From Meiothermus sp. (GTDB lineage: Bacteria; Deinococcota; Deinococci; Deinococcales; Thermaceae): a stretch of DNA of 64,000 nt. This document shows, piece after piece, positions 2,256 to 56,077 of the stretch. The translations under genes were made by a program, and so were the position numbers. Where the stretch lies: contig NZ_BPIM01000001.1 in assembly GCF_026004115.1 (NCBI RefSeq), forward strand, positions 3,018,501-3,082,500. The letters run 5' to 3'. Under the pieces are notes generated by a model. The model was not told where the DNA came from, made no database searches, and worked only from the letters and a program-made list of their open reading frames with translations. How positions within the stretch are numbered: position 1 is the first letter of the stretch; each line of letters starts with the position of its first letter.

Positions 2256-2309
2256 GCAAATTGGGGTGAGGTTTTCGCTTCGTTTCGCGAACTGCGCACT
2301 CGAGGGCTT

Positions 2310-2657: not shown

Positions 2658-2766
2658 AAGTATCACCAGTATAAAAACAGGCTTTCACGACCTCGGTGTT
2701 AACTCAAAGAAAGCTAAAGCTAAGATGAAATAAAAAGCGCACTTATAATCCTAAGTACGCATTTGA

Positions 2767-2772
2767 TATACT
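2767..2772 (+). promoter_or_regulatory. -10 box of a probable leaderless promoter for the Xer gene
   Basis: TATACT lies exactly six bases before the ATG at 2779 and there is no Shine-Dalgarno sequence between them. In Deinococcota a TANNNT box at this distance marks transcripts whose first base is the start codon. No convincing -35 box is seen. Confidence 0.5.
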
Positions 2773-2778
2773 GGTGGC

Positions 2779-3798: not shown

Positions 3799-3799
3799 T

Positions 3800-4246
3800 A
3801 TGAATAGCCAGCTTATAACTCAAAAGAACCTGCTCACCTTTTTTCGGATAACCACCCGCATCATCTTTAATCTGTCCCTCGTTGCGCTACTGTTAGGCCT
3901 TCTGGTAAGCGTTGGCCGCACATTACTGGATCTGGGCCTGGCCTTTACTCAACCGACCGTGCGTCTGGGCCTTAAGGATCTGGTAACCAACATTTTGTCC
4001 CTGGTGGTAGTGCTCGAGCTGGTACGGGCTTTTGTGGATTACTTCGAGTTCGACCGTATCCGGCCAGAAATACTTGTAGAGGTAGCGGTGGTGTTTCTAC
4101 TGCGGGAGATGATGCTGGGCCTTTTCTCCGGAGATATCAAGGGCTGGGATGTACTGGTTTGGAGTGTCGGTATCCTGGCTCTGATTGCAGCCAGGGCCCT
4201 GGCCATTGCTTTCCCTTACAGCAAGGAGAAAAAACATGCGGGTTGA
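3800..4246 (+). CDS. PsiE-like phosphate-starvation-inducible membrane protein
   Basis: Integral membrane protein of 148 residues with four predicted transmembrane segments and the FDRIRPEILVEVAVVFLLRE motif, both typical of the PsiE family (phosphate-starvation-inducible E, function unknown). The start at 3800 is one base after the recombinase stop, indicating translational coupling. No Pho box is visible in front of the pair, so phosphate control is not shown by the sequence. Confidence 0.75.
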   Translation: MNSQLITQKNLLTFFRITTRIIFNLSLVALLLGLLVSVGRTLLDLGLAFTQPTVRLGLKDLVTNILSLVVVLELVRAFVDYFEFDRIRPEILVEVAVVFLLREMMLGLFSGDIKGWDVLVWSVGILALIAARALAIAFPYSKEKKHAG

Positions 4247-38922: not shown

Positions 38923-39840
38923 TTACTGACCCTTGCTGAGGGTGAGGCGAATCCTGCCCGAAATTGAACCACCGGGTTCCAGTACCTGCACGCCCGTATC
39001 GCTCCACCCCTGTGCCAGCAGGTTAAAGCCATTGGTAGCATGTGTCGCCGGTTCCAAAGCCACGCTCCCGTCCGGTGCAGTGAATACCACCAGATGCGAA
39101 TAAATGGGGTCTGCGCGGAGCTCCAGCTGCCAGCCCGAACCAGGCCATTCTAGGTGCAGTACCCCCGTCCAGCCGACAAAAACGTGATCCAGGGCAGCCA
39201 TGCCCAGTGCTCTGGGCTGCGAGAAGTCGAGCTGTGGAGGGATGGCCTCCGCAGGTCGGTTAGGAATGCCGGTAGCATCGGTCAGGTAGACTCGCTCGGC
39301 CTCGAAGGAGAGCTGGGCTTCGGCAGAGTTGCCCAGGTGGCGCATGAAGTAGGGGTGATGTCCAAAGCCCGCCGGCATCGGCCCGGTACCCACGTTTTGC
39401 AAAGCGGTCAGGATTTCGACGCCGTCGTCCAGCAGGTAGTACTGCATTTGTGCGGTGAAGGGAAAAGGAAAATTGATGTCTGGGAAAGCTCGAGCGTCAA
39501 AATCGCACTGCAAGATGTGCTCGTCAAAACGCTGCACCTTCCAGGCCCGTCCGTGAACTTCTCCGTGAATGGTTTGCCGTCCATCGATCCAGTTTGGGCG
39601 AAGCGTGTAGGTTCTCCCCGCAAACTGAAAGCGCCCATCCCGGATGCGGTTGGAATAGGGGGCCAGCAAGTAGCTCGAGGTATCGGGTGAGTGCCTTTGT
39701 ACCAGGGCTGCCGGCGAAGTAGGGCGCAAAACGGGTAACCAGAAGCCCTGTTCATAGAGCTCGAGGCCCACCACACTGGCCCCGAGTTCTGGCGCAACCG
39801 TAAGACGCAAAAGAGGGTTCTGCAAGATCTGAAGGTTCAT
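38923..39840 (-). CDS. Aldose 1-epimerase (mutarotase)
   Basis: Sugar mutarotase of 305 residues that interconverts alpha and beta anomers. Visible features: the substrate Arg in YSNRIRDGRF, the His in TIHGEVHGRAW, FGHHPYF with the catalytic His, and the C-terminal catalytic Glu in VALEPATHATNGFN. The ATG at 39840 is preceded by TTGAGG. It is divergent from the lacI-type gene, separated by 301 bases with promoter and operators, so it is probably part of the same sugar regulon; it would supply the correct anomer to the aldose dehydrogenase. Confidence 0.9.
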   Translation of the reverse strand: MNLQILQNPLLRLTVAPELGASVVGLELYEQGFWLPVLRPTSPAALVQRHSPDTSSYLLAPYSNRIRDGRFQFAGRTYTLRPNWIDGRQTIHGEVHGRAWKVQRFDEHILQCDFDARAFPDINFPFPFTAQMQYYLLDDGVEILTALQNVGTGPMPAGFGHHPYFMRHLGNSAEAQLSFEAERVYLTDATGIPNRPAEAIPPQLDFSQPRALGMAALDHVFVGWTGVLHLEWPGSGWQLELRADPIYSHLVVFTAPDGSVALEPATHATNGFNLLAQGWSDTGVQVLEPGGSISGRIRLTLSKGQ

Positions 39841-40003
39841 CAGCCTCAAGCGTACAAAATCGGGCCGGGTTTGGGGCGAATCATCGAAGGCTTCGATTTA
39901 CTCGGACAAACACAAGTGAGACTTTGTGAGTAAAAATAGGGGAACCATTCCAGCAAAGAGGAGATTCCTCAAAGAGCTAAGTTGAGTCGGCGAATTTCAA
40001 ATC

Positions 40004-40050: not shown

Positions 40051-40112
40051 AAAAAATAAGTAACTAAGTTCTCCTTTCCCTTAGTGGACGTATTTTCTTG
40101 GTTTTCTAGAAG

Positions 40113-40126
40113 TGACAACGATTGCA
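40113..40126 (-). promoter_or_regulatory. LacI-type operator 2
   Basis: TGACAACGATTGCA, 76 bases from operator 1 and 16 bases before the regulator start codon. Two sites about seven helical turns apart would allow a loop that represses the regulator gene and possibly the divergent epimerase gene. Confidence 0.6.
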
Positions 40127-40141
40127 GGCCTCGATATAAAT

Positions 40142-41164
40142 ATGATCAAAATTGCAGATGTAGCTAATATCGCTAAAGTTTCACCGTCCACCGTTTCGCG
40201 GGCGCTAACCAAACCCGATTTGGTTGCACGCGAAACCCGTGAACGGGTTTTGCAGGCAGCGCAACAACTGGGGTACCAGCCTAACAAGTTGGCCAGGGGT
40301 TTACGAAAGCAAAAGAACCACTTACTGGGTTTGATTGTGGGGGATATTCTGGCACCTTTCCATGCCACCTTGGCAAAGGGTGTTCAGGACGCCGCAGAGA
40401 AACACGGCTATATGGTGTTTCTATTCAATTCTGACGAGCAACCCGAAAAGGAGGCTCGCTACCTACAAGAGCTGCAAAGTCACTTACCTGAAGGACTGCT
40501 CTTAGTACCCACCGCCCAGACTCGTCAGCACCTACACGGCTTTCCTAGCATGCGCAACCTGCCCATCATCGAACTGGATCGTACTAGTGGCACCCCAGGG
40601 GTACACGCGGTGTTGGTCGAGAATATCCTGGGCGCCCGTGAAGCAGTGGAGCACCTAATTCAACTCGGACACCGCAGAATCGGGATGGTAGCTGGTGAGC
40701 CGGTCATCACAACCGCGCAGGAACGGCTCGAAGGTTATCGCCAGGCGCTCGAGCAGGCCGGAATTACGTTCGATGAGCGGCTTGTTGCCATCGGGTACCA
40801 CAAGGAGGAGGGTGGATATGCCGCTGCCCTGGAACTCCTTCGACGCCCTCCCGCCGATCGGCCCACGGCCCTTTTTGTGGGAAATAGCGAGATGGCTGCC
40901 GGAACAGTACAGGCTATCCGCGATCTGGACTTGCGCATACCCGATCAGGTTTCGCTAGTTTCCTTCGACGATACCCGCTGGGCCCAGCTGATGAAACCCG
41001 CTCTGACGGTGGTGGCTCAGCCCGCCTACGAGATCGGTTTTTTAGCTTGTGAGACCCTAGTGTCATTACTGCGACAGAAGAAGTCGCTCGACAGCCAAAC
41101 CTTACGACTGAAAACCCGCTTGCTGATCCGGCAGTCAACCACCCGGCCAAACGAGGAAGGTTAA
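40142..41164 (+). CDS. LacI/GalR family transcriptional regulator
   Basis: Sugar-responsive regulator of 340 residues. The N-terminal helix-turn-helix reads IKIADVANIAKVSPSTVSRAL with the hinge helix LGYQPNKLARGLR; the periplasmic-binding-like sensor domain (about 60-335) has GLIVGDIL and LVSFDDTRWAQLM. The ATG at 40142 starts the normal family N-terminus; a GTG 30 bases upstream would overlap operator 2. It heads a row of sugar genes in the same direction and is probably their repressor. One base separates its stop from the next start. Confidence 0.9.
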   Translation: MIKIADVANIAKVSPSTVSRALTKPDLVARETRERVLQAAQQLGYQPNKLARGLRKQKNHLLGLIVGDILAPFHATLAKGVQDAAEKHGYMVFLFNSDEQPEKEARYLQELQSHLPEGLLLVPTAQTRQHLHGFPSMRNLPIIELDRTSGTPGVHAVLVENILGAREAVEHLIQLGHRRIGMVAGEPVITTAQERLEGYRQALEQAGITFDERLVAIGYHKEEGGYAAALELLRRPPADRPTALFVGNSEMAAGTVQAIRDLDLRIPDQVSLVSFDDTRWAQLMKPALTVVAQPAYEIGFLACETLVSLLRQKKSLDSQTLRLKTRLLIRQSTTRPNEEG

Positions 41165-41165
41165 G

Positions 41166-41819
41166 ATGCGACTTTTCCTGGATTCTGCAAACCTGAGCCA
41201 GCTGCAACCCTTGCTTAGGACAGGTGTTTTTTATGGCGTGACCACCAATCCCTTGATTCTAAGGGAAAGCGGCCTCTCTATCGCCGAGCTACCCTCCTTC
41301 ACCCAGGCAGTGCTCCAGGCAGGAGCAAGGGCCGTATTTCTACAGGCCTGGGGTCGTCAAACCGAAGTCCTTTATCAGTGTGGCCGGTTTCTTGCCAGCA
41401 TCGACGGGCGGGTGGTTGTGAAACTTACTGCGACCCAGGAGGGCTTGAGCGCAGCCAGTCGGTTAGCCGCTGAGGGAGTACACACCTGCATCACGGCTGT
41501 CTACACCCCATTTCAAGCTCTGCTGGCCTCTGCGGTGGGTGCAACCTTCGTGGCGCCCTACCTGGGTCGCATCAACGACTCAGGGCGCGACGGGTACGCA
41601 ATTATCGCGAAAATGGCTGAGTCCTTGAAGCACACAAGTTCCAGAACTGAAATACTGGCCGCCTCTATCCGAAGCACCGCCGACCTGGTGACACTTGCAC
41701 AGGAGGGTGTGCGGTGCATAACCTTTTCGGTACCAATTGCCGAAAGGCTTTTTCAAGAGCCTATGACCCTCGAGGCCGCCGAAGCTTTTGAGCAGGCCAT
41801 ACAGGAAGTGAGCTTATGA
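41166..41819 (+). CDS. Transaldolase-family aldolase, second copy
   Basis: Small transaldolase/FSA-type protein of 217 residues. LFLDSANLSQLQPLLRTGVFYGVTTNPLIL, the Schiff-base Lys in VVKLTATQEGLSAA, APYLGRINDSGRDG and ILAASIRSTADLV mark the family. It is clearly divergent from the copy at 18160-18810. Position between the lacI-type regulator and a sugar kinase suggests a catabolic aldolase acting on a sugar phosphate such as fructose 6-phosphate (inference). The stop overlaps the kinase start by four bases. Confidence 0.85.
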   Translation: MRLFLDSANLSQLQPLLRTGVFYGVTTNPLILRESGLSIAELPSFTQAVLQAGARAVFLQAWGRQTEVLYQCGRFLASIDGRVVVKLTATQEGLSAASRLAAEGVHTCITAVYTPFQALLASAVGATFVAPYLGRINDSGRDGYAIIAKMAESLKHTSSRTEILAASIRSTADLVTLAQEGVRCITFSVPIAERLFQEPMTLEAAEAFEQAIQEVSL

Positions 41820-42736
41820 TCGTGGTAGCCGGTGAGGCCTTGATTGATCTCAAGCCCGTGGAGAGTCGGAACGGCTTTTTACTCAGCCCCCACCCCGGCG
41901 GCTCGCCCTACAATGTAGCGCTCAGCCTGGGGCGGCTGGGTGCCCCGGTGGCCTTTTTGGGTCGTTTCTCCACCGACTTCTTTGGGCAGTTGCTGCGGGC
42001 ACATCTCCAGAAGAGCCGGGTTGACCTCAGCTACACTGCACAAGGCCCCGAACTCACTACCCTGGCCGTGGTAACTCCGGGCGCACAGGGGGAGTCCTTT
42101 TCCTTTTACGCCCATCGAACGGCCGATACGCTGCTGAATCCAAAGGATCTGCCCCACACACTTCCCGATGGAGCGCCCTTGCATTTCGGCTCAATTTCGC
42201 TTGTGCTCGAGCCCACCGCCAGCACCCTCGAGACCCTGATGCGACGAGAGGCCGGTCGGCGCCTGATCTCGCTCGATCCCAACGTAAGACCTTTTCTGAT
42301 TCAGAATAAAGAAGCCTATAAAGCACGCCTTCGGAGTTGGCTTTCTCAAAGCAACCTGGTCAAAGTCAGCCAGGCCGACCTGGACTGGCTATATCCGGGT
42401 TTATCTATAGAGCAAATTGCCCGGGAATGGCTCGAGCTAGGCCCCGAGTGGGTGGTAGTAACCCTGGGCTCCGCTGGGGCAGCGGCCTTTTCGCGGACGT
42501 GTGAAGCGCGGGTTGAAGCCCCCCAAATAACCGTTGTCGACACCGTGGGTGCCGGGGATGCCTTCATGGCAGGTCTACTGGCGGGTCTAAACCACTCTGG
42601 TTTCACTTCCAGTACGAAACTGGCTTCGCTTGACCTCGAGCAGATTGCCGGTCTGCTCTCGTTTGCGACAAAGGTGGCTACCCTAACCTGCACCCGGGCT
42701 GGGGCAGACCCCCCTTGGCAGGAGGAGGTGATATAA
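41816..42736 (+). CDS. PfkB family sugar kinase (fructokinase-like)
   Basis: Ribokinase-fold kinase of 306 residues. The N-terminal GEALIDL, HPGGSPYNVALSLGRLGAPVAFLGRFSTDFFG and the C-terminal anion-hole and catalytic motif DTVGAGDAFMAGLL with the base Asp are present. The first half is closest to bacterial fructokinases. Coupled by overlap with the aldolase, it could make a ketose phosphate for the latter. How these two relate to the fucose enzymes downstream is not evident; they may serve a second sugar under the same regulator. Confidence 0.85.
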   Translation: MIVVAGEALIDLKPVESRNGFLLSPHPGGSPYNVALSLGRLGAPVAFLGRFSTDFFGQLLRAHLQKSRVDLSYTAQGPELTTLAVVTPGAQGESFSFYAHRTADTLLNPKDLPHTLPDGAPLHFGSISLVLEPTASTLETLMRREAGRRLISLDPNVRPFLIQNKEAYKARLRSWLSQSNLVKVSQADLDWLYPGLSIEQIAREWLELGPEWVVVTLGSAGAAAFSRTCEARVEAPQITVVDTVGAGDAFMAGLLAGLNHSGFTSSTKLASLDLEQIAGLLSFATKVATLTCTRAGADPPWQEEVI

Positions 42737-42804
42737 ACCCAGGGTGGCGAGGCCCTGTAGCCAGCGCGCCAACGATGAGCCGTAGAGCCACGCCAGCCTT
42801 GGGT
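42737..42804 (+). other. Long imperfect hairpin between kinase and binding-protein genes
   Basis: ACCCAGGGTGGCG right after the kinase stop pairs with CGCCAGCCTTGGGT at 42791-42804, enclosing about 40 bases. No T-run follows. It may be a processing or attenuation structure that separates the upstream genes from the strongly expressed binding-protein gene. The remaining 64 bases carry GGAGGT seven bases before the ATG. Confidence 0.45.
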
Positions 42805-42868
42805 ACCCCGCGCACATAAGGAAACGATTCGGCCTAAGTCAAATCTCTCCTCAGCGGAGGTAGTCAGC

Positions 42869-44341
42869 ATGATACCAAATCTTGCACGGTTGTTTTTTTT
42901 AGTCTTGTTTCTAGTTCCGGCCCTGGCCCAGACCGGGCGCTTTCAGGGTGTCAGCATCAATGTGCTGACTTTTACCGGTCCCCAAATTGCCGAGCCCCTT
43001 CGTCGCCATGCAGCCGCCTTTGAGCGGGCTACCGGGGCCAAAGTTAACGTGACCGTGGTGCCTTTCTCCGACCTGTACCAGCAAATTCTGACCGACGCAA
43101 CCACCGGCACCAACAGCTACGATGCTTGGATCTTCGCACCCCAGTGGATGGCCGACTTTGCTCCCGCAGGTATTATGGAAGATCTGACTGCACGGGTGCG
43201 GGCCGATACCGCCATCCAGTGGAGCGACATCGGGGTGTTCTTCCGTGAGTTCAGCGCTTTGTACGGAGGCAAAATTCTGACCATCCCGCTGGACGGCGAC
43301 TTCCAGATGGTCTACTACCGCACCGATGTGCTGCGTCAACTCGGTCTGCAGCCCCCCCAGACCTGGGACGACTACCTCAACATCGCCCAGCGCGCCAATG
43401 GACGGGACATGAACGGGGATGGCCGCCCCGACTTTGGAAGCTGTATCGCCAAGAAGCGCAACGCCCAGAGCTACTGGATGTTTATGAGCATCCTGGGAGG
43501 GTATGTCCAGACCCAGGGTACGCGCCAGGGCGCTTTCTTCGACACCCGAAATATGCAGCCGCTGGTGAAAAATCAGGCTTTTGCTGAGGCCTTACGCGTG
43601 TACAAAGAGACCACCCGTTTTGGCCCACCCGATGAGCTCAACCTGGATGTGGGCGATACCCGTGGGCTCTTCACCAGTGGGCGCTGTGCCCTCTCGATTG
43701 ACTGGGGGGATATAGGCCCGTTGTCCATCGATCCTCAAACCTCCAAGGTCAAGGATCTGGTGGGGGCCGTAATTTTGCCGGGTAGCCGCAGGATACTGGA
43801 TCGGAACACCGGCAACCTGGTTAACTGCAACGCACAGCTCTGCCCACACGCCATCAATGGGGTCAACCGTGCCCCTTACGCAGCTTTTGGGGGCTGGTCG
43901 GGCGGCATCAACGCCAAAGCAGCGGCGGCCAAGAAGGATGCGGCGTACGCACTTTTCAGCTACATGAGCCAGCCTGCTCAGTCGAACAAGGACGTGACCA
44001 TTGGCATTACCGGCTTTAACCCCTACCGGGTCTCGCAGTTCCGCGACATTCAGACCTGGGTGGCGGCTGGCTTTAGCGAGGCCGGGGCCCGCAACTACCT
44101 GACCGCTATCCAGCAGAGCCTCAACAGCCCCAACATGGTGCTAGATCTACGAATTCCCAAGGCCCAGCAGTACCAACAGGTGGTGCTGGACCGAGTGCTC
44201 TCGGAATACCTGGCCGGTCAGCTTACCATTGCACAAGCCCAGGAACAAATCCATAACGGCTGGGAGGAAATCACCAACGCCGAAGGGCGACAGAAGCAGC
44301 TACAGGCCTACCTGGCCTCGCTGGGGATTGCCGGAAGATAG
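42869..44341 (+). CDS. Sugar ABC transporter substrate-binding protein
   Basis: Secreted solute-binding protein of 490 residues in the family 1 (maltose/multiple-sugar) group. A signal peptide (residues 1-21, ending ALA-Q) is followed by the two-lobe fold with INVLTFTGPQIAEPLRRHAAAFERATG and the family region near ALSIDWGDIGP. It is longer than the common 420 residues. No lipobox Cys is present, so it is probably free or held by its signal. It opens the 13-kb run of fucose-route genes; L-fucose or a fucose-containing oligosaccharide is the likely ligand (inference). Confidence 0.88.
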   Translation: MIPNLARLFFLVLFLVPALAQTGRFQGVSINVLTFTGPQIAEPLRRHAAAFERATGAKVNVTVVPFSDLYQQILTDATTGTNSYDAWIFAPQWMADFAPAGIMEDLTARVRADTAIQWSDIGVFFREFSALYGGKILTIPLDGDFQMVYYRTDVLRQLGLQPPQTWDDYLNIAQRANGRDMNGDGRPDFGSCIAKKRNAQSYWMFMSILGGYVQTQGTRQGAFFDTRNMQPLVKNQAFAEALRVYKETTRFGPPDELNLDVGDTRGLFTSGRCALSIDWGDIGPLSIDPQTSKVKDLVGAVILPGSRRILDRNTGNLVNCNAQLCPHAINGVNRAPYAAFGGWSGGINAKAAAAKKDAAYALFSYMSQPAQSNKDVTIGITGFNPYRVSQFRDIQTWVAAGFSEAGARNYLTAIQQSLNSPNMVLDLRIPKAQQYQQVVLDRVLSEYLAGQLTIAQAQEQIHNGWEEITNAEGRQKQLQAYLASLGIAGR

Positions 44342-44349
44342 ACCGTATG

Positions 44350-44373
44350 GGGTGGGGGCGGCCGCCCCCACCC
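44350..44373 (+). other. Perfect 24-bp GC-rich palindrome after the binding-protein gene
   Basis: GGGTGGGGGCGG followed by its exact complement, nine bases past the stop of the binding protein and 17 before the permease gene. Such hairpins commonly protect the upstream mRNA so that binding protein is made in excess of permease. There is no T-run. Confidence 0.65.
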
Positions 44374-44390
44374 GCCACTGGATATAAGAG

Positions 44391-45524
44391 ATGAAAAAAG
44401 TAGAAAACAAGCTGCAGCAAGCTGGTCTTTGGATCCGGTTTGTGGGCTGGCTCGAGCGTCGTGCGGCAACGGTTTTTTTGCTTCCTTCGGTACTGGTAAT
44501 CCTGGCCTTTGTCTTATTTCCGCTGGTGGGTTCGCTGTATAGCTCCCTAGCCCGCCTGCGGTTTAGTGAGGGAGGCCTCGAGCTAACTTTTGTAGGGCTG
44601 GCCAACTACCGCAAGCTTCTTTTGGGCAGCGAACAGGGGCACTTTTTGGGACAGCCGGGAGCTGGCCTTTGGGCGCTGGTGGTGATGGGACTCTTGGCCC
44701 TCGTCCTGGGGGTGGTAATGTACCACCGCTGGCGGGCAGGACGGTCAGTCTGGATATGGTTAGGGCAACCCTTGCTGGGTGGCTTGCTGTTGCTGGCCTT
44801 TACCTGGCTTTTCCTGAGCCGCCTGTGGCCCGGAACCCGTATGGGCACCCTGCAAACCACCCTTTTTTACGTAATGGCCGGTACCGCCTTGCAGTATTTG
44901 CTCGGCCTGGGACTGGCCTTGCTTTGTGCAGAACGCCTGCCGGGTACCCGCTTTTTCCGGGTGCTGTTCATCCTGCCTCTGGCCATCACCCCCATTGGAG
45001 TGGCTTATATGTTCCGCATGCTCACCGATACCGGTAAAGGTCCCTTGGTTCCCCTTTGGGAGGCCATGGGATTGTCGGGGTTCTCCTGGGTCAACGACCC
45101 CTGGGGTGCTCGGCTGGCCGTTTTGATCGGAGACGTGTGGCAGTGGACCCCCTTTGCTTTCATTGTGTTGCTGGCTGCGCTACAAAGCGTACCCCAGGAA
45201 CAGGTCGAGGCCGCCGCGGTAGATGGGGCCAGCCGTTGGCAGGTTTTTCGTCACATCATCTTTCCCTATTTGCTACCGGCCAGCGCTACCCTGGTATTGA
45301 TTCGGTTGATTGAGGGATTCAAGATTGTGGATCTACCCAACATCCTCACCAATGGCGGCCCCGGTACCGCCACCGAGTCCATTACCCTCCACGCCTACTT
45401 TGCCTGGCGCACTTTGGATATCGGTACGGCTGCAGCCCTGGGCTTTCTGCTGATGCTTCTGGTGAGCCTGATTACCAGCCTGTACGCTGCTTGGATACTA
45501 CCCAGGGCCAGGGGGCAGGTATGA
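44391..45524 (+). CDS. Sugar ABC transporter permease (first)
   Basis: Permease of 377 residues. Beyond the usual six helices it has a wide insert (about residues 85-150) with two extra hydrophobic segments after the GLANYRKLLLGSEQG region. The EAA loop is EQVEAAAVDGASRWQVFRHI. A GAG ribosome binding site precedes the ATG. The stop overlaps the start of the second permease by four bases. Confidence 0.88.
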   Translation: MKKVENKLQQAGLWIRFVGWLERRAATVFLLPSVLVILAFVLFPLVGSLYSSLARLRFSEGGLELTFVGLANYRKLLLGSEQGHFLGQPGAGLWALVVMGLLALVLGVVMYHRWRAGRSVWIWLGQPLLGGLLLLAFTWLFLSRLWPGTRMGTLQTTLFYVMAGTALQYLLGLGLALLCAERLPGTRFFRVLFILPLAITPIGVAYMFRMLTDTGKGPLVPLWEAMGLSGFSWVNDPWGARLAVLIGDVWQWTPFAFIVLLAALQSVPQEQVEAAAVDGASRWQVFRHIIFPYLLPASATLVLIRLIEGFKIVDLPNILTNGGPGTATESITLHAYFAWRTLDIGTAAALGFLLMLLVSLITSLYAAWILPRARGQV

Positions 45525-46537
45525 GGCGGGGTCGTTCTCCCCTGGCGCCTTCCCTTTGGCAGGTAGGCCTCACCTACCTGGCCTTGGGGCTGGCCTCGGT
45601 ATTCGTGTTGTTTCCTTTGTACTGGCTGCTGATCACCTCCTTTAAACTGCCTGTGGATGTCAACAGCGGCCCTGTCTATCTACCCTGGGTAGACTTCAAA
45701 CCGAGCCTGCACGCTTGGGAGTACGTGCTGGGTACCTTGGGATCCGATGTACGTCGGGCCTACGTCAACACTGCGGTGGTAGCCTTATGCAGTGCACTGA
45801 TGGCCCTCTTTTTAGGCACCAACGCGGCCTACGCTCTTACGCGGTTCCAATACCACCCACGGGTAGGCGCTATTGTTTTGTTTGTGGCTTGCCTGGCGCT
45901 GGTGGTGGGCCTGGTGGCCTCAGGGATGCCCTGGCAGCCAGCGGTGGGACTGGGCTTAGTGGGACTCATCCTTGGTCTACAAACCCTGGGCAGGCGCTTT
46001 AAGAAACACCTCGGGAACGAGGAAATTGCCCTATGGCTAATTTCCAACCGCATCCTGCCCCCGGTGGTGGTGGTCATCCCCATCTACCTGCTCTTCCAGC
46101 AGTTGGGCCTGCTGGACACCCGCACCGCCCTGATCATCAGCTATACCGTCATCAATCTGCCCATCGCCGTCTGGTTGATGCGTGACTACTTTCAAAACAT
46201 CCCCCACGACATCGAAGAGTGCGCCCAGATAGATGGCGCCAGCCGTTACCGAATCTTCTGGACTATTGTGCTTCCGCTCGCCGCTCCGGGGTTGGTGGCT
46301 ACTTTTTTGCTACTGCTGGTTTTTGCCTGGAACGAGTACCTGCTGGCCTTATTTCTCTCTAAGGCCAACAGCCAGACCATGCCGCTTATGGTGGCGGCCA
46401 TGAGCGGTACCCGTGGAACCGAATGGTGGTACATGTCGGTGATCATCATGTTGATGATTTTGCCGGTAGTGATTTTGGCATTCGTGCTGGAGCGCTATAT
46501 CGAGCGAGGCCTGATCGTAGGGGCGGTGAAAGGATGA
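45521..46537 (+). CDS. Sugar ABC transporter permease (second)
   Basis: Permease of 338 residues, MalG-like, with six or more helices and an insert of about 60 hydrophobic residues (about 105-165) that mirrors the one in its partner. The EAA loop is DIEECAQIDGASRYRIFWTI. The ATG at 45521 overlaps the previous stop; a start 30 bases upstream would lie deep in the previous gene. No ATPase gene is in the cluster, so a shared MsmK/MsiK-type ATPase elsewhere is expected. Confidence 0.88.
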   Translation: MRRGRSPLAPSLWQVGLTYLALGLASVFVLFPLYWLLITSFKLPVDVNSGPVYLPWVDFKPSLHAWEYVLGTLGSDVRRAYVNTAVVALCSALMALFLGTNAAYALTRFQYHPRVGAIVLFVACLALVVGLVASGMPWQPAVGLGLVGLILGLQTLGRRFKKHLGNEEIALWLISNRILPPVVVVIPIYLLFQQLGLLDTRTALIISYTVINLPIAVWLMRDYFQNIPHDIEECAQIDGASRYRIFWTIVLPLAAPGLVATFLLLLVFAWNEYLLALFLSKANSQTMPLMVAAMSGTRGTEWWYMSVIIMLMILPVVILAFVLERYIERGLIVGAVKG

Positions 46538-47673
46538 AACCCCGCATACGCGCCCTGGTGGTGGGCGGCCCGATGTACGACGGCCTGTACCAGACCATCG
46601 AGCTTTTTGCCCAGCACGAAGGTGTGGATATCGAGGTCGTCCGAGCGGCCAACCATCCCGACCTCAACCAGCGCATTGCCCAAGCCTTTGCTCAGGGCGC
46701 AGGTTTCGACTTAATCTCTACCCACTCGAAGTATGCGCCCGCGCAAAAGCAGTGGTTGCAACCGTTGGACGAACTTCTGAGCCAAGAAGAGCTATCTGCC
46801 TTTGATACCAGGGCCCTGGAGCTAGCCCGCATCGAGGGGGTGCTTTTCGGTCTACCGCGCAATCTGGATGTCAAGCTGCTACACTACCGCACCGACCGGG
46901 TAGCAGAAGTCCCCCCGACCTGGGAGGCTTTGGTGCTGACGGCTAAATCTCAACCGAAATACGGATTCGTTTTTCCTGGAAAGGGCTCGGGGCTGTTCGG
47001 GCATTTTTTTGAGCTGTGCGGTAGTGCCGGTCACTACCTGTACGAAGCCGACCCGCCCTATCCTCATGCGCAGCACCCGGCAGGGCTTTGGGCCCTGAAC
47101 ATCCTGGCTGCCTTAAGCCAGAGCGCCCCCAAAGAAACCACCGAGTGGGAATTCGATGCGGTAACCGCCTGCTTTGCCGCGGGAGAAGCCAGCCTAACCA
47201 CCGACTGGCCGGGTAGCTTTCACCGTTACAAAAAAAGCCCCATTCGCGACCTGCTGGGCCTGGCGTTGTACCCCAAGGGGCCCGTGCGGCGGGCTACCTA
47301 TGCCGGCAGCCACACCTTTGCCCTGGCCCGATCCAGCACCGAGCGTCCCCTGGCGCTGGCTTTGCTAAGACACCTGACCTCGAGAGAGGCCCAGCTGTTT
47401 GAGGCCCGGCAGGGTACCCTGCCTGCGCGAAGGGATGCCCTGGAAGCCATCCGTCAGGAAACCCCCCCCAACACGCTCGAGGCCAGCCGCTGGTATCTTC
47501 TAGAGCAAGCCCTTCACTACGCCTGGTTCCCCCCCAAGCATCCCCGCTACGCAGCAGTGGAGGCCGTGGTAGCCGCAAACTTGCAGTCCTTCTTGCGGGG
47601 AGAACAATCGGCAAAGGCCACCCTGGAACGCATGGATCGTGAGGGTCGGCAGGCTGCGGAGGGGGTCGGATGA
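46534..47673 (+). CDS. Solute-binding-protein homologue without signal peptide
   Basis: Protein of 379 residues with the family 1 extracellular solute-binding fold: LFAQHEGVDIEVVRAANHPDLNQRIAQAF near the N-terminus, FDLISTHSKYAP, and WPGSFHRYKKSP further on. The N-terminus MKPRIRALVVGGPMYDG is short, charged and not a signal peptide, and no hydrophobic segment exists in the reading frame upstream except inside the permease gene. It overlaps the permease stop by four bases and the E2 gene start by four bases. It is therefore probably cytoplasmic, unlike the binding protein at 42869. A cytoplasmic sugar or sugar-acid sensor or carrier role is an inference. Confidence 0.8.
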   Translation: MKPRIRALVVGGPMYDGLYQTIELFAQHEGVDIEVVRAANHPDLNQRIAQAFAQGAGFDLISTHSKYAPAQKQWLQPLDELLSQEELSAFDTRALELARIEGVLFGLPRNLDVKLLHYRTDRVAEVPPTWEALVLTAKSQPKYGFVFPGKGSGLFGHFFELCGSAGHYLYEADPPYPHAQHPAGLWALNILAALSQSAPKETTEWEFDAVTACFAAGEASLTTDWPGSFHRYKKSPIRDLLGLALYPKGPVRRATYAGSHTFALARSSTERPLALALLRHLTSREAQLFEARQGTLPARRDALEAIRQETPPNTLEASRWYLLEQALHYAWFPPKHPRYAAVEAVVAANLQSFLRGEQSAKATLERMDREGRQAAEGVG

Positions 47674-48821
47674 TGGTGGAGGTGCGGATGCCCAAGCCCG
47701 GCAACGCGGTAGAAAGCTGCTTGTTGTTGGCCTGGAAAAAAGAGGTGGGCGAGGCGGTACGGGCCGGTGAGGTGCTATGCGAGATCGAGACCGACAAGGC
47801 TGTAATGGAGGTGGAAAGCCCTGCCGACGGAGTTCTGCTGCAGCGCCTGGCCGAGGCTGGACAGGAGGTGCCGGTGCAAACCCCCATCGCCATCGTGGGC
47901 AAACCAGGGGCCGGTGCACCCACCCACCCCCTGCCCCCGGCCTCCGATAGAAGGAAGCCCGGTATCTCCCCACGTGCTCGGCGCTTGGCACCTCAGGAGA
48001 TCCTCGAGAGCGTCAGCATCGGCGGAAGCGGGCCGGGCGGTCGAATCATCGAGCGCGACGTTTGCAAAGCCCTGGAGCATTCCCCTCCATCCGCTTCAGG
48101 GCCCGGCTTCGCTTCGTTGGCGCCCCCCGAGCCCTGGCAAGCCGTACCCCTGCAGGGTGTACGCAAGCGGGTGGCTGAGCGTATGCTGCATTCGCTCCAG
48201 CAAAGTGCGCAGCTTACCCTGCAAGCCTATGTAGAGGTGGAGGGTTTGCTCAAGCTGCGAGCGGAGCTCAAGCACCACAGCGATCCCCGCTTTAGAGAAG
48301 TGAATCTCAATCACCTGCTGCTTTATGCGCTGGCCCGCACCCTGCCACAGTTCCCCGAACTTAACGCTTGCTTGGTGGGCGATACCCTGTATCAGTACCG
48401 GGCTGTGCACCTGGGTTTTGCGGTGGATACCCCACGGGGTCTTCTGGTTCCGGTTCTTCAGCACGCCGAGCGGTTGGGCTTGCTGGAGTTAGCCCAAAAA
48501 GTCCGGCAACTGAGCGAGGAGGCTCGCCAGGGGAAGGCAGCACCGCAAGCGTTGCAAGGGGGCACCTTTAGCGTTAGCAACCTGGGTTCCCTGGGCATCG
48601 AGGTTTTTACCCCTATTCTGAATTCACCCCAGGTAGCCATCCTGGGCGTCGGCGCGGTGGGTTTGCGCCCTGTGCAGGACGGGCCAGAAGTGGTCTTCCG
48701 GCCCCATCTGCCGCTTTCGCTTACCTTTGATCATCGCGCGACCGACGGTGCACCCGCTGCTCGTTTCTTGCAAGCTTTGGGCCAGCGGCTTACCGATCCA
48801 TTGTGCCTGCTGGCCCTTTGA
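47670..48821 (+). CDS. 2-oxo acid dehydrogenase E2 component (lipoyl acyltransferase)
   Basis: Dihydrolipoamide acyltransferase of 383 residues. One lipoyl domain (about 1-80) has the lipoylated Lys in [17 protein letters not shown]; a peripheral subunit-binding domain is at about 98-135 ([13 protein letters not shown]...[11 protein letters not shown]); the catalytic domain follows (about 155-383) with [19 protein letters not shown] and the active-site [15 protein letters not shown] (HxxxDG). The gene overlaps its upstream neighbour and leads into the fused E1 gene 10 bases downstream. The acyl substrate is not evident from sequence. Confidence 0.9.
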
Positions 48822-48831
48822 TGAGGAGACT

Positions 48832-51288
48832 ATGCCTAAATCGCTTTCCCTTGACCCCGACCACCTACGAAAGGCGGGCTGGCTCGAGGCCCCCCACTTG
48901 CCGCTTAACCAGTACCGATCCGACCCCCAAGCCGAGAGGGCTCGCTATGGGGCCTCTACCTTACGTCGCGTCTACCGGGATATGCTCTATATTCGCGGCT
49001 TTGAAAGTATGCTGGATGCTTTCAAAACCAAAGGTGTGTACCAGGGCATCGAGTACAACCACAAGGGTCCGGCCCACCTCTCCATTGGACAGGAAGCTGC
49101 CGCAGTGGGGCTATGCCTGCCCCTAGGCCCGGAGGATTTCATCTTTGGTTCCCACCGCAGCCACGGTGAAATACTGGCCAAAGGTTTGGGCGCCATAGAG
49201 CAGCTTGGTGAAGCCGAACTGGCCAGCATTTTGGAAGGCTATCAAGACGGGCGCATCCTGCGGGTGGTCGAGCAGTTTGGTCACCAAAGCCTAAAAGAAC
49301 GGGCCCTAGAGTACCTGCTATACGGCTTGCTGGCCGAGATATTTGGCCGCGATACCGGCTTCAACCGGGGTATGGGCGGCTCCATGCATGCCTTCTTTCC
49401 GCCTTTTGGCATCCTACCCAACAACGCCATAGTGGGAGGTTCGGCTGCCATTGCAGTAGGAGCTGCCTTGCACAAGCGGCTACAGCGCAAGCCGGGCATC
49501 TGCGTGGCCAGTCTTGGCGATGGGGCGCTGGGTTCGGGCCCCACCTGGGAAGCCATGGTGTTTGCGAGCATGGATCAGTTTCACACCCTGTGGCCGCAGG
49601 AAATTGGCGGCGCACCCCCGGTACTGTTCAACTTCATGAACAACTTCTATGCCATGGGGGGGCAGACTCAGGGAGAGACCATGGGGTTTGGGGTACTGGC
49701 TCGGGTGGGCTTGGGGGTCAACCCCCAGGCCCTGCACGCCGAGCGGGTCGATGGTTACAACCCGCTGGCTGTGGCGGAAGCCGTGGAACGGAAAAAAAAC
49801 CTGCTACTAGAAGGCCGAGGCCCAGCCCTGTTGGATACCTTGACCTACCGCTATAGCGGGCACTCCCCCTCGGACGCTTCGTCGTACCGAGAAAAAGCCG
49901 AGATTGAGGCCTGGCAGGCCCAGGACACCCTCCTGCACTATGGGCGTTATTTGCTCGAGCAAGGCCTCATGACTCAGAGCGAGCAGGAAGCTTTGTACCA
50001 AGAAGTACAGGAGCGGCTGCACCGCGTGGCTTTATGGGCCACCTCCGACGATGTTTCACCTCGGCTTCCTCCCCACTCCGAACGCATAGCCGAGTGGATG
50101 TTTTCCCGCAAAGAGGAAAAGGCCTACGCAGAAGGCCCGCCATGGGTGCAAAAACCCCTACAAGAAACCCGCTATGGCGTATTGCAGTCAAAATACCGCT
50201 TTGGTCTGGATGAAGAAGGCCGCCCCTTGCCCAAGCTAAAGTGCCTGACCTACGCCGAAGCCCTCACCGAAGCGCTCTATGAGGCCTTCTATAGCGATCC
50301 CAGCTTAATCGCTTACGGCGAGGAAAACCGAGACTGGGGTGGTGCTTTTGGGGTTTACCGGGGTCTGACCGAGGCCTTGCCCTATCCCCGGCTTTTCAAT
50401 GCACCCATCTCCGAGGCGGCCATTGTGGGGACCGCTGTGGGCTATGCCCTCTCGGGCGGTCGGGTGGTGGTAGAGCTGATGTACTGCGACTTCATGGGCC
50501 GGGCCGGAGATGAGATCTTTAACCAGATGGCCAAATGGCAGGCCATGTCGGGGGGAATCCTGGAGATGCCCCTGGTGTTGCGTGTCTCGGTAGGTTCGAA
50601 GTACGGCGCCCAGCACTCTCAGGACTGGTCGAGCCTGGTAGCCCACATCCCGGGCCTTCAGGTGATGTATCCGGCCACACCCTACGACGCCAAAGGTATG
50701 CTGACTGTGGCCTTGCAGGGCAGCGATCCGGTGGTCTTTTTTGAAAGCCAGCGGCTATACGGCGAACCCGAGGTGCTTGTACCAGGGGGTGTGCCCAAAG
50801 AATCCTACCGTATCCCTTTGGGTCAGCCGGCGCTGCGGCGTACAGGCAAGGATCTGACGCTGATCAGCCTAGGACCTGCTTTATATCGGGCGCTCGAGGC
50901 GGCTCGGCAGCTCCAGGAGTATGGCCTCGAGGCCGAAGTTATAGATCTACGCTTTCTAAACCCCCTCGACTACACCTCCCTGGTCGAGTCGGTGCGCAAA
51001 ACGGGGCGGGCCATTCTGGTTTCCGAAGCCTGCGAACGCGGCTCGTTTTTGCATACGGTGGCCTCCAATCTGAGCCAAATGGCTTTTGATTATCTGGACG
51101 GGCCCATTGTGGTGCTGGGGGCTCGCAACTGGATCACCCCGGCCGCCGAGCTAGAAGACCTCTTCTTCCCCGGCCCAGATTGGATTTTGGACGCCGTTCA
51201 CGAGCGTATTTTGCCGTTACCGGGCTACCGGCCCCGCACCCAGCAGGCCACATCGCTTATCCTCGAGCGCAACCGGCTGGGGGTTTGA
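48832..51288 (+). CDS. Thiamine-dependent 2-oxo acid dehydrogenase E1, alpha and beta fused
   Basis: Fused E1 of 818 residues. The alpha half (about 1-420) has [27 protein letters not shown] and the thiamine-diphosphate motif [14 protein letters not shown]...[11 protein letters not shown]. The beta half (about 465-818) has [53 protein letters not shown] and [13 protein letters not shown]. Alpha and beta are normally separate genes; the fusion ensures equal amounts. It decarboxylates a 2-oxo acid and passes the acyl group to the E2 encoded upstream; E3 is absent and must be shared. Pyruvate, the product of the fucose route, is an obvious but unproven substrate. The ATG at 48832 has TGAGGAGA upstream. 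Confidence 0.88.
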
Positions 51289-51300
51289 GGGAGGTACGTT

Positions 51301-52614
51301 ATGCGAATAAAAGACCTTAAAACCCTCGATCTGCGCTTTCCTACCTCACACTCCCTGGATGGTTCGGATGCCATGAACCCCGACCCCGACTACTCGGCGG
51401 CTTATGTGATCCTCCAGACCGACAGCGGTCTGGAAGGGCATGGGCTAACCTTCACCATAGGTCGGGGCAACGACCTGGTCTGCGCGGCTATCGAGCTGCT
51501 ACGGCCCTTGGTGGTGGGTTTCTCACTGGGGGAATTTACTCAGAATATGGGGGCCTTCTACCGGCATATTACCGGTGATTCCCAGCTTCGCTGGCTGGGA
51601 CCGGAAAAAGGGGTTATTCACCTGGCCACCGCTGCTGTGATTAACGCGGTTTGGGATTTGTGGGCCCGGGCCGAGGGCAAACCCCTGTGGAAGCTGGTGG
51701 TGGACATGCGCCCAGAGGAGCTGGTGCGTTGCATTGACTTCCGTTACCTGACCGATGCTATAACGCCCGAAGAAGCGCAGGAGCTCCTGGAGCGCATGGC
51801 ACCAGGAAAGACCCAGCGCGAAGCCCATCTCTTGCGGAAAGGCTACCCCGCTTACACCACCAGTGTGGGCTGGCTGGGCTACCCCGATGATAAAATTCGC
51901 GCTTTGTGTCGCAAGGCCCTGCAGGGAGGCTTCACTGCCTTCAAGCTCAAAGTTGGGCGCGACCTACAGGATGATCTGCGCCGTTGCCACATCGTCCGGG
52001 AAGAGATTGGCTGGGATAAACACCTGATGGTAGATGCCAATCAGGTGTGGGATGTGCCTCAGGCCTTGGCCTGGGTGCAGCAGTTGCTGCCTTTCCGCCT
52101 TCTGTGGATTGAGGAACCCACCAGCCCCGACGATATCCTGGGCCATGCCGCCTTGCAGAAAGCCTTGCAAGGCAGCGGTACGCAGGTGGCGACCGGCGAA
52201 CATGTGCAAAACCGGGTGGTCTTCAAGCAGCTTTTGCAAAGCGGGGCCATTGGCTTCTGCCAGATTGATGCGGCGCGGGTAGGCGGAGTCAACGAAAACC
52301 TGGCCATTCTGCTTCTGGCCGCTAAATTTGGGGTGCCGGTCTGCCCCCATGCGGGTGGGGTGGGGCTGTGCGAGTACGTACAGCACCTTTCCAGCATCGA
52401 CTACATCGCTATCTCGGGTTCGCTCGAGCACCGCTACCTGGAGTACGTGGATCACCTGCACGAGCACTTCGTGGAGCCCGTCCAAGTGCATCAGGGCCAC
52501 TACCAGCTCCCCCAGCGGCCCGGCTATAGCATCGAGATCTGGCCCGCCTCGCGCGAAACCTTCCGGTACCCCGACGGCAGCTACTGGGCAAGCCATCTGG
52601 GAGGGCAGGTATGA
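51301..52614 (+). CDS. L-fuconate dehydratase (enolase superfamily)
   Basis: Dehydratase of 437 residues that converts L-fuconate to 2-keto-3-deoxy-L-fuconate. The mandelate racemase subgroup features are present: [10 protein letters not shown], the KxK pair in FKLKVGRD, the metal ligands in [20 protein letters not shown] and ATGEHVQNR, and the catalytic His in [11 protein letters not shown]. The N-terminus [33 protein letters not shown] and the length are those of the L-fuconate dehydratase group rather than other sugar acid dehydratases. It starts 12 bases after the E1 gene and overlaps the next by four. Confidence 0.92.
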
Positions 52615-53633
52615 TCAAGGCCACCCGCACCCGCCTTCACGGCAAAACCGGCCTAGAGCTGACCCGGCTGGGCTTGGGAACCGCCCCCTTGGGCGGCCTG
52701 TTTGCCCCGGTAAGCGAGGGCGAGGCCCGCGCCACCCTGGAGGCAGCCTGGCAGGCGGGTTTGCGCTACTTCGATACCGCACCCCAGTACGGCAACGGGG
52801 TGGCCGAGCAGCGCACGGGGGCTTTTTTGCAGGATAAGCCCCGAACCGACTTTGTACTCTCGACCAAGGTAGGACGGCTATTGCGCCCGGGGCCGCTCCA
52901 CAAAAGCCAGCTGGATCCCCAGGGCGAACCCTTCTTCAAGGGGGTTCCTCAGCTGGCCCAGGTCTATGACTACAGCTACAGGGGCACCATGGTCTCCCTC
53001 GAGGAGAGCTTGCAAAGGCTGGGCCTGAGCCGGGTAGATATTCTTTACATCCACGACCCCGATGCCGACAACCGCACCGTGAGCGAGGTGATGCAGGGAG
53101 CCTACCGAGCCTTGGTCGAGCTGCGCCAGCAAGAGGTGGTGCGGGCCATTGGAGCGGGCATGAACCACACCGATTGGTTACTGGAGTTTGCTCGAGCGGG
53201 TGACTTCGATCTGCTATTGGTAGCAGGCCGCTACACCCTGCTTGAGCAGGGGGCTTTGTGCGAACTGCTGCCGCTGTGTCTTCAGAAGGGTATCGGGGTG
53301 GTGGCGGGCGGGGTATACAATAGCGGCCTCCTAGCCCGCCCAGCCCCTGGGGCCACCTACAATTACACAGCTGCCCCGCCTGAACTGATAATGCGCGCCC
53401 AGGCCTTGCAGAAAGTCTGCCAGCGTCATGGGGTGCCCCTCAAAGCAGCAGCCATCCAGTTTCCCCTGGGCCATCCAGCAGTGGTCTCGGTGCTGACCGG
53501 GGCTCGCTCGGGGCAAGAACTGGAAGAAAACCTGCAAATGTTCGAGACCCCACTGCCTGCAAGCCTCTGGGAAGACCTGATCGCCGAAGGGCTGCTGGGC
53601 CAGGATGTGCCCATACCCGTACAGGAGGCCTAG
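52611..53633 (+). CDS. Aldo/keto reductase, probable L-fucose (D-threo-aldose) 1-dehydrogenase
   Basis: NAD(P)-dependent oxidoreductase of 340 residues. The catalytic tetrad can be traced: Asp in YFDTAPQYG, the Tyr in the same motif, Lys in [12 protein letters not shown] and the His in ILYIHDPD. The [12 protein letters not shown] start and STKVGRLL pattern match the D-threo-aldose/L-fucose dehydrogenase group. It oxidises L-fucose to L-fucono-lactone, the first step of the route. The ATG overlaps the dehydratase stop (ATGA), and its own stop touches the next start. Confidence 0.88.
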
Positions 53634-54374
53634 ATGCAACGACTTAAAGGCAAGACCGCTCTCATCACCGCCGCTGGGCAGGGCATCGGAAGGGCTACGG
53701 CGGAACGCTTCATTGCTGAAGGCGCTAGCGTGATCGCAACCGACCGAGACCCCGAGTTGCTGCGGGGTCTGGCCTGTGCGCAAGCTCGCCTGGATGTACT
53801 CGACCTGGGCCAGATTGAAGCGGTGGTAGCAGGGCTTCCACGGGTAGATATTCTGTTCAACTGCGCCGGCTATGTTCACCAAGGCACCATCCTGGAATGC
53901 AGCGACTCGGACTGGGAGTTCAGCTTTAACCTCAATGTGCGTTCCATGTTCTGGACCATGCGGGCCGTTATTCCCAAGATGCTCTCCCAGGGCAGCGGCT
54001 CCATCATCAACATCGCCAGCGCTGCCTCCTCTATTAAGGGGGTGCCCAACCGTTTCGTTTACAGCGCTACCAAAGCCGCCGTGATCGGTATGACCAAAGC
54101 GGTGGCCGCCGACTACGTGACCCGGGGTATCCGGGCCAATGTGATCTGTCCCGGTACGGTGGACTCTCCTTCCTGGCGGGCTCGTGTGGTTGAACAAGCC
54201 CAGCGCACGGGCCAAAGCGAGGAGGAAGTACGACAGGCCTTTATCGCGCGCCAGCCCATGGGCCGGTTGGGCCGGCCCGAGGAGGTCGCTGCGCTCGCCG
54301 CCTACCTAGCCTCCGACGAGGCAGCTTTCACCACTGGGGCAGTACACTTGATCGATGGCGGCTGGACTATGTGA
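53634..54374 (+). CDS. SDR family dehydrogenase, probable 2-keto-3-deoxy-L-fuconate dehydrogenase
   Basis: Short-chain dehydrogenase of 246 residues. The nucleotide site TAAGQGIGRATAERF, the NNAG-like FNCAGYVHQGTI, the catalytic Ser in NIASAASSIKG and YSATKAAVIGMTKAVA (Tyr-x3-Lys) are present. The acidic residue after the second strand (ATDRDPEL) points to NAD. In the known bacterial route this enzyme oxidises 2-keto-3-deoxy-L-fuconate to the 2,4-diketo acid. Its ATG follows directly on the stop of the aldo/keto reductase gene. Confidence 0.88.
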   Translation: MQRLKGKTALITAAGQGIGRATAERFIAEGASVIATDRDPELLRGLACAQARLDVLDLGQIEAVVAGLPRVDILFNCAGYVHQGTILECSDSDWEFSFNLNVRSMFWTMRAVIPKMLSQGSGSIINIASAASSIKGVPNRFVYSATKAAVIGMTKAVAADYVTRGIRANVICPGTVDSPSWRARVVEQAQRTGQSEEEVRQAFIARQPMGRLGRPEEVAALAAYLASDEAAFTTGAVHLIDGGWTM

Positions 54375-54391
54375 TTGCCAGGAGTTTTGCT

Positions 54392-55234
54392 ATGAAGCTT
54401 GTCCGGTATGGAAGCAAAGGCAAGGAAAAACCGGGGGTGCTGGATGCCGAAGGGCATATACGCGATCTTTCGGAGGTGGTGCCCGATATCAACGGTTTGG
54501 TTTTGAGCAAGCATCTGCCCCGCCTGGCCCGGCTGAACCCCAGCCGACTGCCCCTGGTGCGGGGCCGTCCCCGGCTGGGGCCATGTGTGGGTCAGGTAGG
54601 TAAGTTCATCTGCATAGGCCTCAACTATAAAGACCACGCCGACGAGACGGGCGCGGTCTATCCGCTCGAGCCGGTGGTTTTTCTAAAAGCCACCAGCGCC
54701 ATCTCGGGGCCCTTTGACCCCATCGTAATCCCCAGAGGTTCAACCAAGACCGACTGGGAGGTAGAGCTGGGGGTGGTGATTGGACGCCCAGCCAAATACG
54801 TTTCCGAGTCCGAAGCCCTGCAGTATGTGGCAGGCTACTGTGTGGTCAACGATGTCTCGGAACGCTCTTTTCAGCTCGAGCGCGGCGGCCAGTGGGACAA
54901 GGGCAAGGGCTGCGACAGCTTTGGCCCCATCGGCCCCTATCTGGTGACCCGGGATGAAGTACCCGACCCGCAAAATCTGCGGCTATGGCTCGAGGTAGAC
55001 GGGCGACGTTATCAGGACGGCCATACCCAGAACATGATCTTCAGCGTGGCTCAACTGGTCAGTTATGTTAGTCACTTCATGAGCCTCCAGCCGGGCGACG
55101 TCATCTCGACCGGTACCCCAGCAGGGGTGGGCCTGGGGCAAAAACCCGAGCCGATTTACCTGTGCCCAGGGCAGGTCGTGCGGCTGGGCATCGAAAGGCT
55201 GGGCGAGCAGCAGCAAAAAGTAGTCGCCGAGTAG
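54392..55234 (+). CDS. Fumarylacetoacetate hydrolase family, probable 2,4-diketo-3-deoxy-L-fuconate hydrolase
   Basis: Hydrolase of 280 residues. The metal-binding acidic residues lie in KTDWEVELGVVIG, and FICIGLNYKDHADETG, CDSFGPIGPYLV, QNMIFSVAQLVSYVS and DVISTGTPAGVGLG are family signatures. Members in fucose and arabinose clusters cleave 2,4-diketo-3-deoxy acids, here to pyruvate and L-lactate. The ATG at 54392 is chosen because AGGAG lies about seven bases upstream; it is 17 bases past the SDR stop. Confidence 0.88.
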   Translation: MKLVRYGSKGKEKPGVLDAEGHIRDLSEVVPDINGLVLSKHLPRLARLNPSRLPLVRGRPRLGPCVGQVGKFICIGLNYKDHADETGAVYPLEPVVFLKATSAISGPFDPIVIPRGSTKTDWEVELGVVIGRPAKYVSESEALQYVAGYCVVNDVSERSFQLERGGQWDKGKGCDSFGPIGPYLVTRDEVPDPQNLRLWLEVDGRRYQDGHTQNMIFSVAQLVSYVSHFMSLQPGDVISTGTPAGVGLGQKPEPIYLCPGQVVRLGIERLGEQQQKVVAE

Positions 55235-55243
55235 AGGTGGGTT

Positions 55244-56077
55244 GTGATTGTTGATGCGCACCAACACTTTATCTTTCCCAGCCGGCTGCACTACCCTTGG
55301 CTGCAGGACCCCGCTCTGGCCCCATTGTGCCGCGACTTCACCCCGGATGACCTGCGGCCCCTACTTCGGGCATCGGGGGTAGATTGCACCATTGTGGTAC
55401 AGGCCAGAAGCAGCCTCGAGGAAACCAAAGAGCTGCTGCAAATCGCCGCAAGCACAGATTACGTAGTAGGAGTGGTGGGATGGGTTGACCTGACCGATCC
55501 AGCGGTGGGCCGGGTGTTGGACGAGCTCATGGCCCTGCCGGAGGGCCGCTATCTGGTTGGGATACGCCACCAGGTACACGACGAACCTGACCCCAACTGG
55601 TTACTTCGGCCCGAGGTGGGGCGTGGTTTGGCGGCGCTCGAGCAGCGCGGGCTGACCTACGACCTACTGGTTCGTATTCGCGAACTGCCAGCCGCCCTGG
55701 CCTGTGTGCAAAATTATCCTCGTCTGCGTTTTGTTTTAGATCATCTAGCTAAACCCAATATCGCCCGGGGACAGTGGGGCGATTGGCTCAGAGCGCTCGA
55801 GCCTTTGGCTGCGCAACCCAACGTCTGGGTCAAGCTTTCTGGGCTGGCTACTGAAGCCGACTGGAAGCACTGGAAGCAGGAGCAATTGGCTCCTTACATC
55901 CGGGAGGCTCTAGCGTTATTTGGCCCCTCGCGCTGTTTGTTCGGTAGCGACTGGCCTGTGTGTACGTTGGCAGCCAGTTATGCTCAGGTTAAGGAAGCCT
56001 TGGAGTGGGCTTTACGAGAAACCAGCCTGGCTTTGTTAGGCGAAAATGCTCTACGGATATACAAAATCAAAACCTAG
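55244..56077 (+). CDS. Amidohydrolase family, probable L-fucono-lactonase
   Basis: Metal-dependent TIM-barrel hydrolase of 277 residues (COG3618 sugar-lactonase group). The motif IVDAHQHFIFPSRLHYPWL at the N-terminus, VVQARSSLEET, GIRHQVHDEPDPNWL, VLDHLAKPNI and FGSDWPVCTL are conserved. It would open L-fucono-lactone to L-fuconate, step two of the route. The GTG start at 55244 is supported by GAGGTGGG upstream. It is the last gene of the run; an IS element follows 70 bases further on. Confidence 0.88.
   Translation: MIVDAHQHFIFPSRLHYPWLQDPALAPLCRDFTPDDLRPLLRASGVDCTIVVQARSSLEETKELLQIAASTDYVVGVVGWVDLTDPAVGRVLDELMALPEGRYLVGIRHQVHDEPDPNWLLRPEVGRGLAALEQRGLTYDLLVRIRELPAALACVQNYPRLRFVLDHLAKPNIARGQWGDWLRALEPLAAQPNVWVKLSGLATEADWKHWKQEQLAPYIREALALFGPSRCLFGSDWPVCTLAASYAQVKEALEWALRETSLALLGENALRIYKIKT

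Follow-up and report, generated by a model that had tools for sequence, protein, structure and literature searches.

The locus and its genes

The window, a stretch of 64,000 nucleotides, comes from a 3.35 Mb genome of the Meiothermus genus group. It contains an operon running from a LacI regulator gene at 40112 to an amidohydrolase gene ending at 56077, with one further gene divergent from the regulator gene. The features are as follows (SBP, solute-binding protein):

38926-39849, minus strand: aldose 1-epimerase-like gene (PF01263), in divergent orientation to the LacI gene of the operon
40112-41164, plus strand: LacI-family regulator, head of the operon
42869-44341, plus strand: secreted SBP of 490 aa with an N-terminal signal (SBP_bac_1)
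44391-45524, plus strand: CUT1 permease 1 (BPD_transp_1)
45491-46537, plus strand: CUT1 permease 2 (BPD_transp_1)
46534-47673, plus strand: signal-less CUT1 SBP homologue of 379 aa, the subject of this study
47670-48821, plus strand: E2 acyltransferase of a 2-oxoacid dehydrogenase, with lipoyl and catalytic domains
48727-51288, plus strand: 2-oxoacid dehydrogenase E1 (alpha-beta fusion), with its true start probably 3' of the listed TTG
51301-52614, plus strand: L-fuconate dehydratase-like enzyme (MR_MLE), here named FucD
52611-53633, plus strand: aldo/keto reductase (AKR), probable L-fucose 1-dehydrogenase
53634-54374, plus strand: SDR, probable 2-keto-3-deoxy-L-fuconate 4-dehydrogenase
54371-55234, plus strand: FAA_hydrolase family, probable 2,4-diketo-3-deoxy-L-fuconate hydrolase
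55244-56077, plus strand: Amidohydro_2, probable L-fuconolactonase

The roles of the aldo/keto reductase and the SDR are assigned by analogy with the published non-phosphorylating L-fucose pathway (PMC11199699), in which the counterpart of FucD is called FucC. FucD of the window is of the same type as proteins annotated as L-fuconate dehydratase at two other loci (L013, L015). The published pathway starts with the mutarotase FucM (PMC11199699); all of its steps except this one are present in the window operon, which holds no recognised mutarotase gene. The fucose ABC operon (40112-56077) showed no ATPase gene; a shared ATPase of the MsmX/UgpC type is presumably encoded elsewhere.

The protein under study starts with MKPRIRALVVGGPMYD. 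Its ATG shares four nucleotides (ATGA, 46534-46537) with the stop of the upstream permease gene, and its own stop overlaps the start of the E2 gene. The Pfam search yields SBP_bac_8 (2.5e-18) and SBP_bac_1 (5.9e-14) over most of the length and only SBP families, with no DNA-binding or partner domain. A profile of the 17-member family matches solved CUT1 binding proteins, with 1e-47 for MalE3 and 2.1e-42 for the trehalose/maltose-binding protein. The protein thus belongs, over its full length, to the fold family of CUT1 SBPs such as MalE3, the trehalose/maltose-binding protein 1EU8, and SmoF. The original prediction, made from the window sequence, had described an ABC binding-protein fold, a start overlapping the permease stop, and a normal secreted binding protein in the same operon; the first is borne out by the Pfam and CUT1 profile matches, the second by the shared ATGA and the permease reading frame ending at 46537, and the third by the signal-bearing product of 42869-44341. 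An AlphaFold2 model built from five sequences was too poor for use (pLDDT 55, pTM 0.44). A reading as a defence protein was ruled out, there being no PADLOC match.

Absence of an export signal

The protein has at least 16 relatives, found in Meiothermus sp., M. luteus, one Thermaceae MAG, a genome from another Deinococcota family (L050), and twelve Chloroflexota genomes. An in-frame stop is located 2-19 codons 5' of the start in 11 of the 17 family sequences; so short a distance leaves no space for a signal peptide in these 11 genes. The conserved GGPxYD motif is preceded by 8-16 residues in all 17 signal-less sequences; the distance is 44-72 residues in eight secreted relatives with their ordinary signals or lipoboxes. 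In the window, the frame is open for 57 codons upstream of the ATG; these codons are the permease gene read in another frame, and their translation lacks a hydrophobic core. A misplaced start codon was ruled out by the upstream stops of the homologues and their consistent starts. Homologues were also checked for a conserved signal peptide, and no Sec, Tat, or lipoprotein signal was seen across the whole clade. The predicted synthesis in the cytoplasm is therefore upheld, and the protein is almost certainly cytoplasmic.

Phylogenetic position

The 17 signal-less sequences form one clade (support 98/98), adjoining the secreted SBPs of L-fucose-type operons from Alphaproteobacteria and Chloroflexota. 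Identity of the Meiothermus protein to secreted fucose-operon SBPs from plasmids is 26-34%. It descends from a sugar-binding protein like those that serve L-fucose ABC importers. The secreted SBP of the window operon is not its closest relative and falls elsewhere in the tree, hence the signal-less protein is not a recent copy of it, and a recent duplication within the operon was ruled out. No relative was found in the viral contigs searched.

Genomic context and transporters

Some signal-less genes neighbour a CUT1 system and some a CUT2 system, others have no transporter beside them, and they are regularly found near genes of L-fucose-type oxidative catabolism. At two loci (L050, L055) the neighbour is a CUT2 (ribose-type) transporter with an SBP of its own (Peripla_BP_4), while at two others (L041, L044) no transporter gene is present within the stretch read around the signal-less gene. 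Conversely, three Thermaceae genomes (G006, G004, G002) have an orthologous importer without the signal-less protein, the secreted SBPs being 74-77% and the permeases 62-76% identical. Unlike CUT1 SBPs, then, the protein has no signal peptide or lipobox and is not bound to one permease type; a dedicated, conserved tie to a cognate CUT1 permease pair is not seen. The linkage of the clade is with L-fucose-type oxidative catabolism and not with a transporter.

Exchange with the mutarotase RhaM

In the operons of the same three Thermaceae genomes, the slot between permease 2 and FucD is occupied by a 107-aa RhaM (L-rhamnose/L-fucose mutarotase, PF05336; match of 1.4e-30 at L075), separated by 3-7 nt from both neighbouring genes. 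The gene order at L006 and L007 is LacI-TAL-PfkB-SBP-perm1-perm2-[signal-less gene]-FucD-AKR-SDR (TAL, TAL_FSA), and at L073 it is LacI-TAL-PfkB-SBP-perm1-perm2-[RhaM]-FucD-AKR-SDR, a difference of one gene. The same one-gene exchange is seen between L008 and L074/L075.

FucD is encoded in 15 of 111 Deinococcota genomes. Genome-wide, RhaM is present in none of the five of these that carry the signal-less gene (G000, G008, G012, G015, G453) and in nine of the other ten (Fisher p = 0.002); the tenth (G467) is a genome 64% complete, with FucD at a contig edge. A stricter table, in which RhaM counts only when it lies in the fucose operon and FucD only from 60% identity upwards, gives 0/5 versus 5/6 (p = 0.015). 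The FucD tree calls for three or more switches from one state to the other; as it is poorly resolved and the species are related, both p-values are indicative only. FucU was not found in the five Deinococcota carriers, save for an RbsD-like gene in a ribose operon of G012. RhaM is present in all ten secreted-SBP fucose-type loci examined.

At six related Chloroflexota loci (L039-L044), an SDR and/or an SGL-family lactonase gene stands beside the signal-less gene, which fits, as such enzymes would follow a mutarotase; neither RhaM nor FucU was found in these six genomes. Taken by position, the signal-less gene holds the RhaM slot and the two genes exclude each other, with exceptions outside Deinococcota. 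The two proteins share the operon slot, the pathway, and the compartment, but are unrelated: RhaM/FucM has 107 aa and belongs to PF05336, while the 379-aa protein matches only SBP families. The signal-less protein very probably displaces RhaM in these operons. This exchange, which the original prediction had not noted, points to a catabolic function at the mutarotase position.

The exceptions are of several kinds. In five of the twelve Chloroflexota carriers, RhaM is encoded on another contig; in two genomes (G382, G544) it is clearly part of a rhamnose operon, adjoining rhamnose-type kinase and aldolase genes, and is 33-38% identical to the fucose-type RhaM. G382 also has a FucU-family gene (PF05025 search) on the same contig as its divergent signal-less gene (L046), at a distance of about 11 kb; the L046 locus has no FucD. 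The FucD operon of G454 contains neither the signal-less gene nor RhaM, so the mutarotase step can be dispensable. In the window, the aldose 1-epimerase-like gene at 38926-39849 (minus strand) possibly acts on fucose as an alternative mutarotase; such a gene was not seen upstream of the operon at L006 or L008.

Residues of the binding pocket

The protein was aligned via HMMs to E. coli MBP (sequence identical to 1ANF), a distant alignment. It places H64-S65-K66 on H64-D65-R66 of MBP, D112 on E111, G12-P13 on D14-K15, and the loop 147-155 on 149-156. Residues D14, K15, D65, R66, E111, and E153-Y155 of MBP are established ligand contacts. Pocket-equivalent residues common to the signal-less clade and the secreted fucose-operon SBPs include G12, Y15, H64, R109, D112, W225, and H260. 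Fixed differences of the clade at or near the pocket (secreted residue in brackets) include N45 (D), K66 (S), Q71 (Y), S152 (E), and Y256 (W). By this mapping, the ligand-binding cleft appears to be kept and retuned in the clade; the charge shift could reflect catalysis by a lysine or binding of an acidic ligand. On the same grounds, the protein may bind a sugar or sugar acid within the cell, as the original prediction had suggested.

Proposed role and alternatives

The best explanation, which we put forward tentatively, is that the fucose mutarotase underwent non-orthologous replacement, with an SBP-fold mutarotase as the most likely substitute. That the protein itself is a mutarotase, an activity suggested by gene position, is plausible and somewhat short of probable. 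L-fucose delivered by the importer would be bound in the closed cleft, where the protein would speed ring opening and closure, and the 1-dehydrogenase (aldo/keto reductase) would thereby be given the anomer that it uses; candidates for the acid/base residues are invariant pocket-equivalent ones such as H64, K66, and D112. Proteins of the SBP fold have turned into enzymes before (PMC7683729), although that precedent concerns another SBP family and another reaction, and catalysis by the protein described here is inferred. The complete scenario is slightly more tentative still: an importer SBP may have lost its export signal and become a cytoplasmic SBP-fold mutarotase displacing RhaM in the L-fucose catabolism of Deinococcota and Chloroflexota.

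Less likely, though to be taken seriously, is a non-catalytic cytoplasmic binder that buffers or presents L-fucose or an intermediate (fuconolactone, fuconate, or a keto acid), or that senses a ligand; RhaM would then have been lost in a separate event, by coincidence. The SBP fold normally only binds, the residues held in common with the secreted relatives are those of the binding cleft, and the G454 operon manages with neither protein. However, the one-for-one exchange in the RhaM slot and the genome-wide exclusion would be left unexplained, and a sensor would have to act with no DNA-binding or partner domain.

Somewhat more doubtful still is that the protein serves an acidic intermediate as enzyme or partner and is not a mutarotase; it could, for example, cooperate with the 2-oxoacid dehydrogenase (E1/E2) or have a lactone or keto acid as its target. 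Replacements of D by N45, S by K66, and E by S152, at or near MBP contact positions, remove negative or add positive charge, and E1 genes stand beside the signal-less gene in the window, at L009, and at L046. Most members have no E1 nearby, however (among them L006, L007, L008, L050, L045, and L039-L044), and the MBP positions come from a distant HMM alignment, with no usable structure model.

Regulation of the permease or ATPase from the cytoplasmic face, which the original prediction had also proposed, is very improbable. It would agree with the overlap of the signal-less gene with a permease gene in Meiothermus, and with a CUT2 permease gene at L050. Yet orthologous transporters, 62-77% identical, work without the protein (L073-L075), and members of the clade accompany unrelated CUT1 and CUT2 systems or have no transporter gene in the stretch read, which together make a role on one transporter unlikely. 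Export after all, through a wrong start codon or an unconventional route, is hardly conceivable: the 57 open codons upstream in the window would allow it, but they encode no hydrophobic stretch, the start position is consistent across species, and 11 of the 17 homologues have the in-frame stops described above.

If the protein is indeed a mutarotase, its fold would be new for a mutarotase and the conversion of an SBP into an enzyme would be of a second kind, one in which the SBP was recruited as an enzyme for the sugar that its relatives import, and the secreted relatives are at hand for comparison. The exchange within the operon translates into a concrete and cheap enzyme assay. The clade also shows a possible error of the automatic label "extracellular solute-binding protein", with which such a protein is assumed to be part of the adjoining importer. 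In the open literature, as distinct from subscription papers, we found no report of cytoplasmic SBPs of this kind, of CaiB-linked SBPs (below), or of SBP-fold mutarotases.

Additional observations

A second and seemingly unrelated family of signal-less SBP homologues, starting with MTWSHPRGYxPM, is encoded at L014 (4743-5891), L017 (4813-5949), and L051 (8487-9656, minus strand). At L014 and L017 the start of the gene lies within the stop codon of a CaiB/BaiF CoA-transferase gene. Like the protein from Meiothermus, these homologues have no signal peptide and show a start-to-stop overlap with a catabolic gene; however, they form a separate clade (100/100 in the best tree) with about 19% identity to it, although a joint clade is not rejected (p-AU 0.065). 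They occur together with RhaM and hence are not its replacements. Relatives were found in 145 plasmid records (Sinorhizobium, Azospirillum, Streptomyces, Variovorax, and others). With this larger family in view, cytoplasmic SBPs of catabolic operons look like a class that has escaped notice.

The E1 genes of 2-oxoacid dehydrogenases adjoin the signal-less gene at three distant loci: in the window (47670-51288, including the E2 gene), at L009 (5372-7534), and at L046 (6958-8897, flipped). E1 is an alpha-beta fusion in the window and at L009, and is split at L046; the E1 genes are absent from the sister operons L006-L008.

A conserved 550-aa protein (L008, 10554-12206; also L074, L075, and L109), 69-77% identical between loci, is encoded in L-fucose operons of Thermaceae and Chloroflexota. 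It has no Pfam match at 1e-5, and the label "FucI", assigned by eye at L008, L074, and L075, was dropped on that ground.

Finally, the Chloroflexota locus L009 combines the signal-less gene, genes for two SDRs, and E1 with a gene for an 882-aa protein (1171-3819), by eye a candidate GH95-like glycosidase, which would fit the release of L-fucose from glycans.
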